DNA of 64,000 bases from Bdellovibrio sp. ZAP7 (GTDB lineage Bacteria > Bdellovibrionota > Bdellovibrionia > Bdellovibrionales > Bdellovibrionaceae): NCBI RefSeq assembly GCF_006874645.1, contig NZ_CP030082.1, positions 248,001-312,000 on the forward strand. Reading direction: 5' to 3'. The first letter of the stretch is position 1, and every line of letters begins with the position of its first letter. The position numbers and the translations under genes are program-made. The notes beneath the pieces were generated by a model, which was not told the origin of the DNA, did not search any database, and saw nothing but the letters and a program-made list of their open reading frames with translations. Below are positions 57,011-61,193 of this stretch, one piece after another.

Positions 57011-58429
57011 TTAGAATGGAAGATCCTTGTTCGGAAAGGTGTATCCAAGAGCGATACCCGCTGCCACAAAGGCTGCCGAGTCCACAGATGTGGGAGAGTT
57101 AGTAACATCGGAAATAATATTACTCCACATGCCTTCTGGCACAGTCGCACTTCGGCTGAATATTTGAATACTCCAACGTTCTTTAATAAACATCATCGCG
57201 CCAATTTCAAGGCCTACCGTCACGCCAAGACTGTCTTCGCGATAATCGCGCCCCTGCCATTCGGTCGTGATCGAGTCGTAGCCCACCGTCGGAAAGATAT
57301 TTAGATACAGATTGTATCGATTGTTCCCATAGTTAAAGCTTGGGCCCCAGCCGACATCCGTGTGAAAGCGTTTAAACTGAACGTCTTTCAATGCCGGAAT
57401 GTCGTTAAAATGTTCGCGGGCGTAAGAAAAACTTAAACTCGGAGTTAAGCGAAAGTGATAGCGCCATTCCTTGCGTTTCGAAGGAGGCAGAAAGTTTTTT
57501 AAACTGATGGCAGCCAGGTACTGTGTGGTCTTTTCCACAAATCCTTCAGAGCTGACCTCCTCTGCGCTGACATTTTGTTCATTGATAGTCAGGCTGGTTT
57601 TGCCGGAGGCTGGAATAATAAAAATCGAATTAGGTAAAACACTTACGACTTCAGAGCTTCTATCTGTCCATCCCACCTCGTAAATGGAAGGCGTCAGCGA
57701 TTTATCAAAAGCAAAGTCCATGCTTTTTGATTCCGCAGGATTTAAAATATCTTGAAGTTCACCCTTGACCAGTACCTTGTGAGGATTAGAAGAGATATCG
57801 ACAGTACCTAGGTAAATTTTTGAAGCCTTCAAGCGATAAGCAGTCTCATAACGATCTGACTTGTCACCTTGGTCATCGTTATCCATGTCATGATCGTTAA
57901 AAATCGGTAGTGACTGGTTGTAGGGAAGAACCGTTGCTGAAGTCTGTGTGCTGCTTAAGTCCGTGCTAATAAGTCTTCCGACTTCGTCAGCAATATTAGG
58001 ATGAGCAGCAATCGGTGGAGCGACGGTTATAATGACGGGAGGCTGGTAATTGCTTGGGCGCGATTTAGGAAAATCTAAATTGACTTCGTCTTGGTACTCC
58101 CAGGCCGCACCTGTCAGCAAATCTGTGGCCCAGCCAATCGGGGCCCAGCTTAGAAAACCCAGATTGCCGGCAAAGCTTCGTCCCCAACGATAATGACCAT
58201 TGAGTTCGGCTGTCGTCTTGGATTGTCCATCCACGGCATTCAGTTGGAGTGAGCTTTTACGAGGGACTTCTGCAAGAAGGGGAGCTTGGCCCAGGAGTTC
58301 GTCGTCTTGATAGACCTTGGCTCCTGGGAGGTTTGTATGAACGTGAATGATTTGGCGTCGTCCACCGCTGGTTGCGCAGGCTGAAAGAATCAAGCTGAGA
58401 CTAAGGGCTGCGCAAATTCTGAATTTCAT
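57011..58429 (-). CDS. PEGA-like lipoprotein with C-terminal barrel-like region
   Basis: The 472-residue protein is a lipoprotein (lipobox LSACA). Residues 25-60 look like a PEGA domain (IIHVHTNLPGAKVYQDDELLG, APLLAEVPRKSS), followed by a glycine-zipper-like GFLSWAPIGWATDLLTGAAW. A middle domain has a DNDDQGDKSD stretch, and the last 160 residues show alternating beta strands (FRLTPSLSFSYA, YNLYLNIFPTVGYDS), suggesting a barrel or surface module. Envelope location is likely; function unknown. Confidence 0.75.
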   Translation of the reverse strand: MKFRICAALSLSLILSACATSGGRRQIIHVHTNLPGAKVYQDDELLGQAPLLAEVPRKSSLQLNAVDGQSKTTAELNGHYRWGRSFAGNLGFLSWAPIGWATDLLTGAAWEYQDEVNLDFPKSRPSNYQPPVIITVAPPIAAHPNIADEVGRLISTDLSSTQTSATVLPYNQSLPIFNDHDMDNDDQGDKSDRYETAYRLKASKIYLGTVDISSNPHKVLVKGELQDILNPAESKSMDFAFDKSLTPSIYEVGWTDRSSEVVSVLPNSIFIIPASGKTSLTINEQNVSAEEVSSEGFVEKTTQYLAAISLKNFLPPSKRKEWRYHFRLTPSLSFSYAREHFNDIPALKDVQFKRFHTDVGWGPSFNYGNNRYNLYLNIFPTVGYDSITTEWQGRDYREDSLGVTVGLEIGAMMFIKERWSIQIFSRSATVPEGMWSNIISDVTNSPTSVDSAAFVAAGIALGYTFPNKDLPF

Positions 58430-58438
58430 TCCGTCGTT

Positions 58439-59686
58439 TTACTTTTTCTTCCACTTCGCTTTCTTAGGATTTGCAAACAGATCTTCGCTATCAAGCAAAG
58501 CTTGAAGGCTCTTATCGATATCTGAAGTTTCCGGTTGAGAAGCGATAATTTTATAGTCGGCTTTGTTTACTTTAATAACTTCAACTGGCTTGGTCAACAG
58601 CGCCTCGATATTCGCAAGTTGTTCTTTTTCTTCCGTAGCACAGAAGGAAACAGCGATACCTTTGTTAAAACCGCGGCCTGTACGACCGATACGATGAACG
58701 TAGTTTTCAGGTTTTTCCGGCAAGTCATAGTTAATGACATGTGTAACGTCAGGGATATCGATACCGCGGGCACTTACGTCAGTTGCGATCATGATTTTGC
58801 ATTCGCCTTTTCGGAAGGCTGCCATCACGTCAGCACGGTCGACTTGATCTTTTTCTCCGTGCAACGTCAAAGACGCGATATTCACGCGCTCTAAAGCTTT
58901 AGCAACGCGTTCAGCACGCACACGAGTACGAACGAAGACGATAAATTTACCATCTGCATTTTGATTGATGTACTCTGCAAGGAAGAAACGTTTGTCATCC
59001 ATTTCCACGAACATCACATAGTGCTTCACGTTTTTAGAAACAGGATCTTCCGGAGAAATTTCGATACGGATAGCGCTGCTGCGAACTTGAGAGTAAGCAA
59101 GTTTTTTGATTTCAGGATTGATCGTTGCGGAGAAGAACAAAGTCTGGTGGCGACGGTTTAGTTTTCTTTTGATGTCTTCGATGTCGTCAATGAAACCCAA
59201 ATCCAACATTTGGTCTGCTTCATCCAAAACCAGGTGTTCGATGAAATTCAAGTTAATGAAACCTTGAGAGATCAAGTCAAACATACGACCAGGGGTCGCG
59301 ATCAACACGTCGATGCCGTCTTGAAGTTTTTTAATTTGCGCATCCTGTTCGATGCCACCAAATAAAGCGAACGGTTTAACCTTCGTGTGTTTGGAAAGTT
59401 TATTAAACACTTCACCAATTTGCTGAGCCAATTCACGAGTCGGAACGAGTACCAGGCATTTGATACCGATTGCACGCTTGCTGCTTTTTTCGGAGTGGAT
59501 CATGTTGATAATAGGAATTGCAAAGGCCGCCGTTTTACCGGTACCGGTTTGGGCAATGGCCAGAACGTCTTCGCCTTTAAGAATGGATGGAATGGCTTTG
59601 AACTGAATGTCAGTTGTGCGGAAATAGCCGTTGTCTTCAAGGTTGCGAAGAAGGTCTTCAGAGAGGTGGAATTTTTCGAATTTCAT
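58439..59686 (-). CDS. DEAD-box RNA helicase
   Basis: The 415-residue ATP-dependent RNA helicase shows the Q motif TTDIQFKAIP, AQTGTGKT, PTRELAQQ, TPGRMFD, VLDEADQM, SATI (motif III), and domain 2 with ATDVSARGIDIP and HRIGRTGRG. It is an RhlE/CshA-like protein with a short basic C-terminus (KKAKWKKK). A strong hairpin covers its ribosome site and ATG (see findings). DoxX lies 53 bases upstream on the same strand. Confidence 0.96.
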   Translation of the reverse strand: MKFEKFHLSEDLLRNLEDNGYFRTTDIQFKAIPSILKGEDVLAIAQTGTGKTAAFAIPIINMIHSEKSSKRAIGIKCLVLVPTRELAQQIGEVFNKLSKHTKVKPFALFGGIEQDAQIKKLQDGIDVLIATPGRMFDLISQGFINLNFIEHLVLDEADQMLDLGFIDDIEDIKRKLNRRHQTLFFSATINPEIKKLAYSQVRSSAIRIEISPEDPVSKNVKHYVMFVEMDDKRFFLAEYINQNADGKFIVFVRTRVRAERVAKALERVNIASLTLHGEKDQVDRADVMAAFRKGECKIMIATDVSARGIDIPDVTHVINYDLPEKPENYVHRIGRTGRGFNKGIAVSFCATEEKEQLANIEALLTKPVEVIKVNKADYKIIASQPETSDIDKSLQALLDSEDLFANPKKAKWKKK

Positions 59687-59718
59687 GACAGACCTCTATC
59701 ATGGAGAGGTCTGTCATG
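59684..59718 (-). promoter_or_regulatory. 14-bp hairpin burying the SD and AUG of the 58439 helicase gene
   Basis: CATGACAGACCTCT (59684-59697) and AGAGGTCTGTCATG (59705-59718) are perfect inverted copies around 7 bases. In the mRNA, the 3' arm contains AGAGG (the ribosome site) and ends with the AUG of the helicase. The folded RNA would block initiation. Confidence 0.8.
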
Positions 59719-59739
59719 TCCAACTTGCTGAATTATTTA

Positions 59740-60147
59740 CTATTTTTTGTGAAACAAAGCCTTAATTTTTGGCGCGTATGGCGGCGCAAAGAAGGCCAAA
59801 TAGATCAATAAAGCACCCAGGATCAAAGCTAGGGGCACGCCACTTGGAGCCAGGAACGCATGGATAAAGAAAATATTCAAAACGATCGGCGCCATGATGA
59901 CCAGGCAAAGTGGCACAAACCAGCCAATCAGAATCAAAAGCCCGCACACGGTTTCCGTGATTTTAAGTAGCGGCATGAAATAAACGGAAGCCATGATGCC
60001 TTGGAAGTAAGTCAACATTGCCGGTGGCATGCCTTCTACGGGTGGAGGTGGCATAAGGCCCATCTGTTGTGCAAGGCCAGCAACTCCCGAAAGAAAAAAG
60101 ATCAAACCGAAAAGAATACGCGCGATCATTGGTAGTTTAGCTTTCAT
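59740..60147 (-). CDS. DoxX-family membrane protein
   Basis: The 135-residue protein has four helices and DoxX features: IARILFGLIFFLSGVAGL, PLLKITETVCGLLILIGWFVPL and IVLNIFFIHAFLAPSG. DoxX-like proteins have been tied to thiosulfate oxidation in archaea and to redox stress in bacteria; the role here is unknown. It starts about 60 bases from the divergent YeiH-like gene. Confidence 0.9.
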   Translation of the reverse strand: MKAKLPMIARILFGLIFFLSGVAGLAQQMGLMPPPPVEGMPPAMLTYFQGIMASVYFMPLLKITETVCGLLILIGWFVPLCLVIMAPIVLNIFFIHAFLAPSGVPLALILGALLIYLAFFAPPYAPKIKALFHKK

Positions 60148-60206
60148 GATGAATACCCCTTTTTAAATATTGGAGCTTATCTTCAATTTAGTATCAACCA
60201 AGAATT

Positions 60207-61193
60207 ATGTCGGTTACTCTTTTCCCTATGAATATACCAAGAATCCAATATCTCGTTTCGATGGCTCTCATTCCACTACTTGCAGTGGCGTGTTTTGTTT
60301 TTAGCTTCTCATCAGCACTCGCATTGGTTCTGGGATTGGTTACGGCAGTCACAGTCGGCAATCCCTATATCTCTAAAACACGTAAGTTGACCTCGAATCT
60401 TTTAAGCATCGCCGTTGTCGGTTTGGGTGCGGGAATGGATTTGAATGTGGTTGGCCGAGTAGGCGCGCAAGGTGTGGGTTACACAGTGCTAGGTATCTCG
60501 TTGACCCTGATCATTGGTTATTTCTTGGGTAAAGTTCTAAAAACTGAGCGTGATACTTCGATTTTGATTTCAGCGGGAACAGCCATTTGCGGAGGCAGTG
60601 CTATCGCGGCGGTTTCTTCTTCCATCAAAGCGAAGCCCCATGAAATTTCGGTCTCCTTGGGTGTGGTGTTCATGTTGAATGCCCTGGCCTTGATTGTTTT
60701 CCCATTTGTGGGTCATCACTTTAATTTGACGGAAGGTCAATTCGGTCTGTGGAGTGCACTTGCGATTCATGACACAAGTTCTGTTGTCGGAGCGTCTATG
60801 CAATATGGTGCTCACGCCTTAGAAGTGGGAACAACGGTGAAACTTGCAAGAGCATTGTGGATTGTTCCAGTGACATTGTTCTTTGGATATTTGGTTTCAC
60901 GTAAACAAGAATCTACGGCGGGCAAAACAAAATTTCCGTGGTTTATTCTTGGGTTTTTATTAGCGGCAGCTCTAGTTACTTGGATCCCTCAGCTTCAGGG
61001 AGCAGGAAAAGTCGTCAACGAACTTGCCAAAAAACTTTTAGTGGTCACGTTGTTTCTGATCGGCGCGAATTTGACTCGCGACACATTACGCAGTGTCGGC
61101 GTGCGACCATTGATCCAAGGTGTTTTACTATGGATTGTTGTTGGCGGACTGACATTAGCAGCAATTTTAGCGGGCTGGATCGGGCTCGCGTAA
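60207..61193 (+). CDS. YeiH/UPF0324-family putative sulfate exporter
   Basis: The 328-residue protein has about ten helices with family text: NLLSIAVVGLGAGMDLNVVG, SAGTAICGGSAIAAVSS, IHDTSSVVGAS and LTRDTLRSVGVRPL. YeiH proteins are proposed anion exporters. ATG 60207 and 60228 are both possible; neither has a strong ribosome site. Diverges from doxX. Confidence 0.93.
   Translation: MSVTLFPMNIPRIQYLVSMALIPLLAVACFVFSFSSALALVLGLVTAVTVGNPYISKTRKLTSNLLSIAVVGLGAGMDLNVVGRVGAQGVGYTVLGISLTLIIGYFLGKVLKTERDTSILISAGTAICGGSAIAAVSSSIKAKPHEISVSLGVVFMLNALALIVFPFVGHHFNLTEGQFGLWSALAIHDTSSVVGASMQYGAHALEVGTTVKLARALWIVPVTLFFGYLVSRKQESTAGKTKFPWFILGFLLAAALVTWIPQLQGAGKVVNELAKKLLVVTLFLIGANLTRDTLRSVGVRPLIQGVLLWIVVGGLTLAAILAGWIGLA

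Follow-up and report, generated by a model that had tools for sequence, protein, structure and literature searches.

Synthesis of a DEAD-box RNA helicase in Bdellovibrio sp. ZAP7 is probably subject to a real brake or switch, in the form of a hairpin at the start of the gene that pairs both the Shine-Dalgarno sequence and the start codon. On balance, we favour the reading that this leader structure is selected, that it keeps translation very low by default and that the ancestor of four Bdellovibrio species acquired it in a single event. In the window analysed here, a stretch of 64,000 nucleotides, the hairpin runs on the minus strand from 59718 to 59684 as a perfect inverted repeat of 14 bp with a 7-nt loop, and occupies part of the 53-nt gap between a DoxX-like gene and the helicase gene, together with the helicase ATG. 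The 5' arm (CATGACAGACCTCT, 59705-59718), which complements the region from the Shine-Dalgarno sequence to the AUG, is followed by the loop CCATGAT (59698-59704) and the 3' arm AGAGGTCTGTCATG (59684-59697); the latter contains the Shine-Dalgarno sequence AGAGG (59693-59697) and is closed by the ATG itself (59684-59686). A standard 16S tail with CCTCC was found in the ZAP7 genome. The preliminary description of this locus had proposed just such a stem of 14 bp with a 7-base loop hiding AGAGG and AUG, and both the positions and the pairing (arms 100 % complementary) were borne out. With the ribosome site and the start codon lying inside a stable predicted stem, the hairpin is a member of the known class of start-sequestering leader structures, of unusual strength and on an apt gene.

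The helicase gene (58439-59686, minus strand) encodes a protein of 415 amino acids with matches to PF00270 and PF00271, and its best NCBIfam matches are CshA and RhlE, each scoring under its curated cut-off. The AUG at 59686-59684 is very likely the true start, since the N terminus MKFEKFHLS is common to near relatives from residue one and an in-frame TAG lies three codons upstream. The DoxX-like gene (59740-60147, minus strand) has its stop codon 53 nt before the helicase start, and the spacing is alike, at about 55 nt, in the four species that carry the hairpin. The two genes are possibly co-transcribed. Sigma-70-like sites numbered two in 2 kb against 3.5 expected, neither of them immediately upstream of the helicase. 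A doxX-like gene, recognised by eye in this and other relatives, also precedes the helicase in the related locus L007, at a distance of about 160 nt. The hairpin may thus have been acquired as the doxX and helicase genes came close together.

The predicted stability of the leader is exceptional by several measures. The 101-nt leader has a minimum free energy of -31.9 kcal/mol against a mean of -16.2 for shuffled sequences (z -5.1; none of 200 shuffles as low). Opening the region from -15 to +5 is predicted to cost 24.0 kcal/mol, which ranks first among 419 mechanically chosen ORF starts in 464 kb of the genome (the window and 20 stretches of 20 kb each), where the runner-up costs 18.1 and the median start 6.7 kcal/mol. 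Six other DEAD-domain genes were detected in the same genome at E<=1e-30, and the candidate starts of the five that could be read (L152 gave no burial value) cost 2.1-15.1 kcal/mol.

Pairing has been retained while the arms changed. On comparing the four species, with one gap in L005 moved by hand, three of the 14 pairs were found to have changed on both sides: one is A-U in ZAP7, G-U in L003 and G-C in L004 and L005, a second is G-C in L004 and C-G in the other three, and a third is U-A in L005 and C-G in the other three. A fourth variable pair is U-A in ZAP7 and an unpaired C.A in L003-L005, and the remaining ten are invariant. The order of the G-C, G-U and A-U states at the first of these pairs is consistent with the tree, and L003 has one extra U inserted in its 3' arm. 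The paired change in L004 converts AGAGG to AGACG, destroying the Shine-Dalgarno sequence with pairing retained, so that a long hairpin has been kept by paired changes even at the expense of the Shine-Dalgarno sequence. When seven substitutions were placed at random on the tree, starting from the inferred ancestral stem with the C.A already unpaired and with the L005 gap moved by hand, the observed pairing was reached in 785 of 2,000,000 runs. These changes are meaningful because the synonymous divergence among the species is high: four-fold sites differ from ZAP7 at 45 of 165 positions in L003, 80 of 151 in L004 and 93 of 147 in L005.

A pair-counting tool applied to the unmoved MAFFT alignment, with a possible outer helix included, found 96.8 % of cells paired and two pairs changed on both sides; slid versions paired at only 29-44 %, and 80 of 500 shuffles scored as high, a control that is not striking, partly because the gap placed by MAFFT hides the L005 pair. 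Compensatory changes of the kind seen in sequestering leader hairpins are accordingly to be read here for four species and alongside that shuffle control. RNAalifold, run on the same alignment, independently predicted the same structure except for the C.A pair. Covariation within this subclade supports the earlier proposal of an RNA structure that conceals the ribosome site and AUG, and we regard a selected RNA structure as the better reading, though from four sequences only.

Constraint is also evident outside the stem. Between the doxX stop and the stem only 2 of 21 leader columns vary among the four species, and only three of codons 2-14 are variable as compared with 71 % of codons overall; among windows of 13 codons this is the lowest in variation, with no other of 402 as low. 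In 108 orthologue sets lacking the hairpin, which overlap one another and have similar overall variation, none showed three or fewer variable codons at 2-14 (mean 8.7, minimum 4), and for codons 2-10 alone two of the 108 were as low. This pattern fits an RNA constraint that would extend into the coding region. A weaker outer helix, predicted jointly for the four relatives, would possibly explain the codon constraint and is kept as a candidate; on the minus strand, its 5' strand (TCAG..AG.TGGA) lies at 59719-59731 and its 3' strand, within helicase codons 6-10, at 59658-59670. Just two columns of the 5' strand vary, both in a predicted internal loop, and the strength of the duplex is unremarkable, as 240-362 of 5000 shuffles were as good. 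The stretch ACCUCUCU, placed by the preliminary description just inside the coding region as a further possible partner of the ribosome site, is indeed present at 59667-59660, but is predicted to pair partly with the leader at 59731-59719 and not with the Shine-Dalgarno sequence.

The distribution of the hairpin is narrow. Close orthologues of the helicase (E<=1e-130) were detected in 16 of the 24 genus genomes searched, apart from G010, where only the 3' part of the gene lies at a contig end and could not be scored. Four of the 16, namely this genome, G022, G021 and G011 (loci L002-L005), carry the hairpin, and the helicases of the latter three are 93-99 % identical to that of ZAP7. The other 12, among them the orthologue of G006, have no such stem, and their starts cost 3.9-6.9 kcal/mol to open. 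Over the family, burial amounts to 16.7-24.0 kcal/mol in the four hairpin species as against 2.6-10.9 in the 25 other rows computed, one of which (L145) is mis-anchored; L141 was not located. A tree of 28 rows, drawn from 31 family genomes matched at E<=1e-130 and leaving out L141, L145 and L028 (G043), places the hairpin species in one clade with support of 100/100, nested among relatives with weak start codons; its sister, with moderate support (92/87), is the GTG-starting L008. This topology suggests a single gain of the hairpin, before the four species diverged.

A covariance model built from the four leaders and searched against 79 genomes under the stricter filters of Infernal reached E<=1.2e-21 only in those four, although some match at E<=1 was obtained in 15 of the 79. 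These confined matches, together with the count of 4 in 16 genus orthologues, rule out a genus-wide element. A comparison of homologous leaders across Bdellovibrionota for covariation had been suggested at the outset; covariation holds within the four-species subclade, for four sequences only, and the element itself is not general in Bdellovibrionota. The next-best match of the model, at 34.8 bits and E 3.9e-5, was the G035 helicase leader, whose score derives partly from shared coding sequence. In this leader, from another genus, a GC-rich stem GGGGGCC/GGCCCCC (L021:1453-1529) stands directly before the ATG of the orthologue with an opening cost of 10.6 kcal/mol, and possibly arose independently of the hairpin of the ZAP7 clade. 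In the helicase leader of G042 (L018) an upstream ACCTCT can pair with the AGAGGT ribosome site over a longer loop, with a mean pairing probability of the Shine-Dalgarno sequence of 0.83 at 37 C.

Relatives without the hairpin appear to limit initiation differently. By alignment, 16 orthologues of the 28-row tree (L006-L016, L018, L022 and L142-L144) start with GTG or TTG, and in every one of them GAGG occurs within -16 to -5. L006, L013, L014 and L022 each have an alternative ATG upstream in frame, which makes the weak start likely rather than certain in these four. Within the genus, 11 of the 12 orthologues lacking the hairpin have an apparent weak start behind GAGG, the exception being L017, with an ATG and no GAGG. 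A weak start codon at this gene thus looks like a conserved trait, one that a single lineage seems to have exchanged for AUG and a strong hairpin. The 5' arms of L003-L005 present CAC opposite the ATG, leaving the C.A mismatch, and CAC would pair perfectly with GTG; since CAC fits GTG, we infer that the stem arose while the start was still GTG, that GTG then changed to ATG and that ZAP7 later restored the pair through a C to T change. The hairpin may accordingly act in place of the weak start codon to limit translation, an interpretation drawn from one lineage. In many of the weak-start relatives, a TGGTAAAT-like stretch was noticed by eye about 40-50 nt upstream of the start. Control through a weak start codon is known from infC, with its AUU. 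As with infC, initiation at the helicase gene would be limited at the start region, most of the nearest ZAP7 orthologues apparently having GTG or TTG behind a GAGG that is more exposed than in ZAP7; in the hairpin subclade, by contrast, which uses AUG, structure would impose the limit.

If the leader folds in the cell as predicted, the hairpin would keep the ribosome off the start and limit helicase synthesis, with AUG plus hairpin taking over the limiting role of the weak start codon of the relatives. A block of the predicted strength implies an active opener, and when the protein is needed the hairpin might be opened by a helicase (the product itself or a paralogue), by S1 on the ribosome, which is a possible opener of leader structure, or by a nuclease such as RNase III. 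Against a simple brake it may be said that the predicted 24-kcal/mol block exceeds what a mere set-point needs. Should the selected-structure reading be true, the gene would offer a compact natural test of whether an RNA helicase can open its start site to control its own translation, and of whether selection swaps a weak start codon for structure as the limiter of translation, and the four hairpin species with their weak-start relatives form a ready comparative set.

As regards the opener, positive autoregulation, in which the protein would unfold the hairpin over its own start and so promote helicase synthesis, is conceivable though unlikely. The gene encodes an RNA helicase, and none of the other starts among the 419 is buried as deeply, those of the other readable DEAD-domain genes being less so; DEAD-box enzymes, however, unwind short duplexes non-processively, and a GC-rich hairpin of 14 bp is a hard substrate that refolds fast. 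Moreover, no sequence feature names the opener, the arms differ between species with no fixed sequence site kept, and most relatives have the same gene without the hairpin. A more elaborate form of the idea has a self-gating helicase whose 24 kcal/mol lock permits translation only where some helicase activity exists beforehand, so that a threshold or bistable switch results; the lock would have arisen when the GAGG-GTG start region was copied in inverted orientation, and would have replaced the weak start codon. This we consider rather improbable. Autoregulation of a bacterial DEAD-box helicase has been reported for CrhR of Synechocystis, although the directness of the effect is left open in the text available (PMC3485376). 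The crhR gene resembles the present case in being under post-transcriptional control, and differs in that the control described there concerns transcript accumulation and protein stability, the terms "UTR" and "start codon" being absent from the main text of that paper (PMC3485376). Feedback of the helicase on its own leader, the logic put forward in the preliminary description, is best treated as hypothetical.

Activation by RNase III, whereby a cut in the duplex frees the start codon, is likewise rather improbable. A single RNase III family match occurs in the ZAP7 genome, but a stem of 14 bp is short for this enzyme; an adequate length would be attained only if the stem stacked on the weakly supported outer helix, and cleavage within the 3' arm could separate the Shine-Dalgarno sequence from the message. 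In the available text of PMC5371410, RNase III is reported to expose the occluded ribosome sites of E. coli adhE and lambda cIII. These leaders are similar to that of ZAP7 in that a structure occludes the ribosome binding site and translation needs an opening event (PMC5371410), and dissimilar in that the ZAP7 stem is perfect, includes the AUG, belongs to a helicase gene and has no Rfam covariance-model match (none at E<=1 in 58000-61000).

We find it improbable that the hairpin is a mutational relic, that is, a palindrome made by template switching during replication, repaired by similar events and with little or no function. A single template-switch event can yield a perfect stem together with compensatory changes, as described in the available part of PMC8794818, and two 5'-arm changes on the ZAP7 branch, one C to T and the other G to A, each lead towards a perfect complement of the 3' arm. 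The stem has nevertheless persisted through high synonymous divergence, the leader and the first 14 codons are unusually conserved, the G-U pair of L003 resembles a stepwise intermediate, and a useless block at the start of a conserved gene would be expected to be lost. An origin of the stem by template switching is plausible, but such an origin does not account for its upkeep.

A palindrome acting at the DNA level, as a transcription-factor operator or as the terminator of doxX, is very improbable. The site has perfect dyad symmetry and lies 21 nt past the doxX stop; against this, the letters of the arms vary with pairing kept and L003 has a G-U pair, which suits an RNA better than a fixed protein site. 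The hairpin is also single-copy in the 4.12-Mb genome when any loop letters and up to three mismatches are allowed, which counts against an operator and rules out a repeated element. A doxX terminator is ruled out, as the flanks AAATTCGA (minus strand) and TCCAACTT (plus strand) contain no TTTT and the hairpin is absent from the terminator scan. Perfect stems of at least 11 bp with loops of 3-12 nt number 49 in 464 kb of the ZAP7 genome, and 45 of them carry TTTT where an arm ends or next to that point, the helicase hairpin being among the four that do not. In 39 cases an ORF stop is close by, with the stem on its 3' side, the helicase hairpin being counted there by its distance to doxX, and three overlap a start codon, taken mechanically as the first start: the helicase hairpin, a T-flanked stem in L124 and a stem in L122 without a T-run.

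An RNA thermosensor that melts on warming, also suggested in the preliminary description, is hardly credible, for although the ribosome site is buried in a hairpin as in RNA thermometers, the predicted opening cost falls only from 26.3 kcal/mol at 30 C to 24.0 at 37 C and is still 21.3 at 45 C, so that by prediction the stem is far too stable to melt near growth temperature or to open within the growth temperature range.

With regard to other helicase leaders, that of rhlE of Caulobacter crescentus, likewise a helicase gene of the RhlE type, also has predicted stem-loops; this leader, of 186 nt, was tested for low-temperature induction, and the available text has no start-codon hairpin (PMC5472812). 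Titles and opening lines of abstracts in the open-access literature yielded neither a description of a bacterial helicase opening its own start hairpin nor a study of Bdellovibrio DEAD-box helicases. The part of PMC10715135 available has nothing on this subject, PMC5874925 concerns, in its accessible part, feedback on RNase J, and the word "helicase" is absent from the main text of a Bdellovibrio transcriptome paper, which deals with HD100 (PMC3627812).

Some other hairpins of the ZAP7 genome deserve mention. Long hairpins at L122:19943-19990, L115:7935-7976 and L114:5841-5874 have in common a core like GGTACGG(C/A)CTTAC and may represent a repeated palindromic element. At L130:5445-5501 a perfect 27-bp hairpin, closed by a 3-nt loop and lacking TTTT next to its ends, stands between two converging ORFs.
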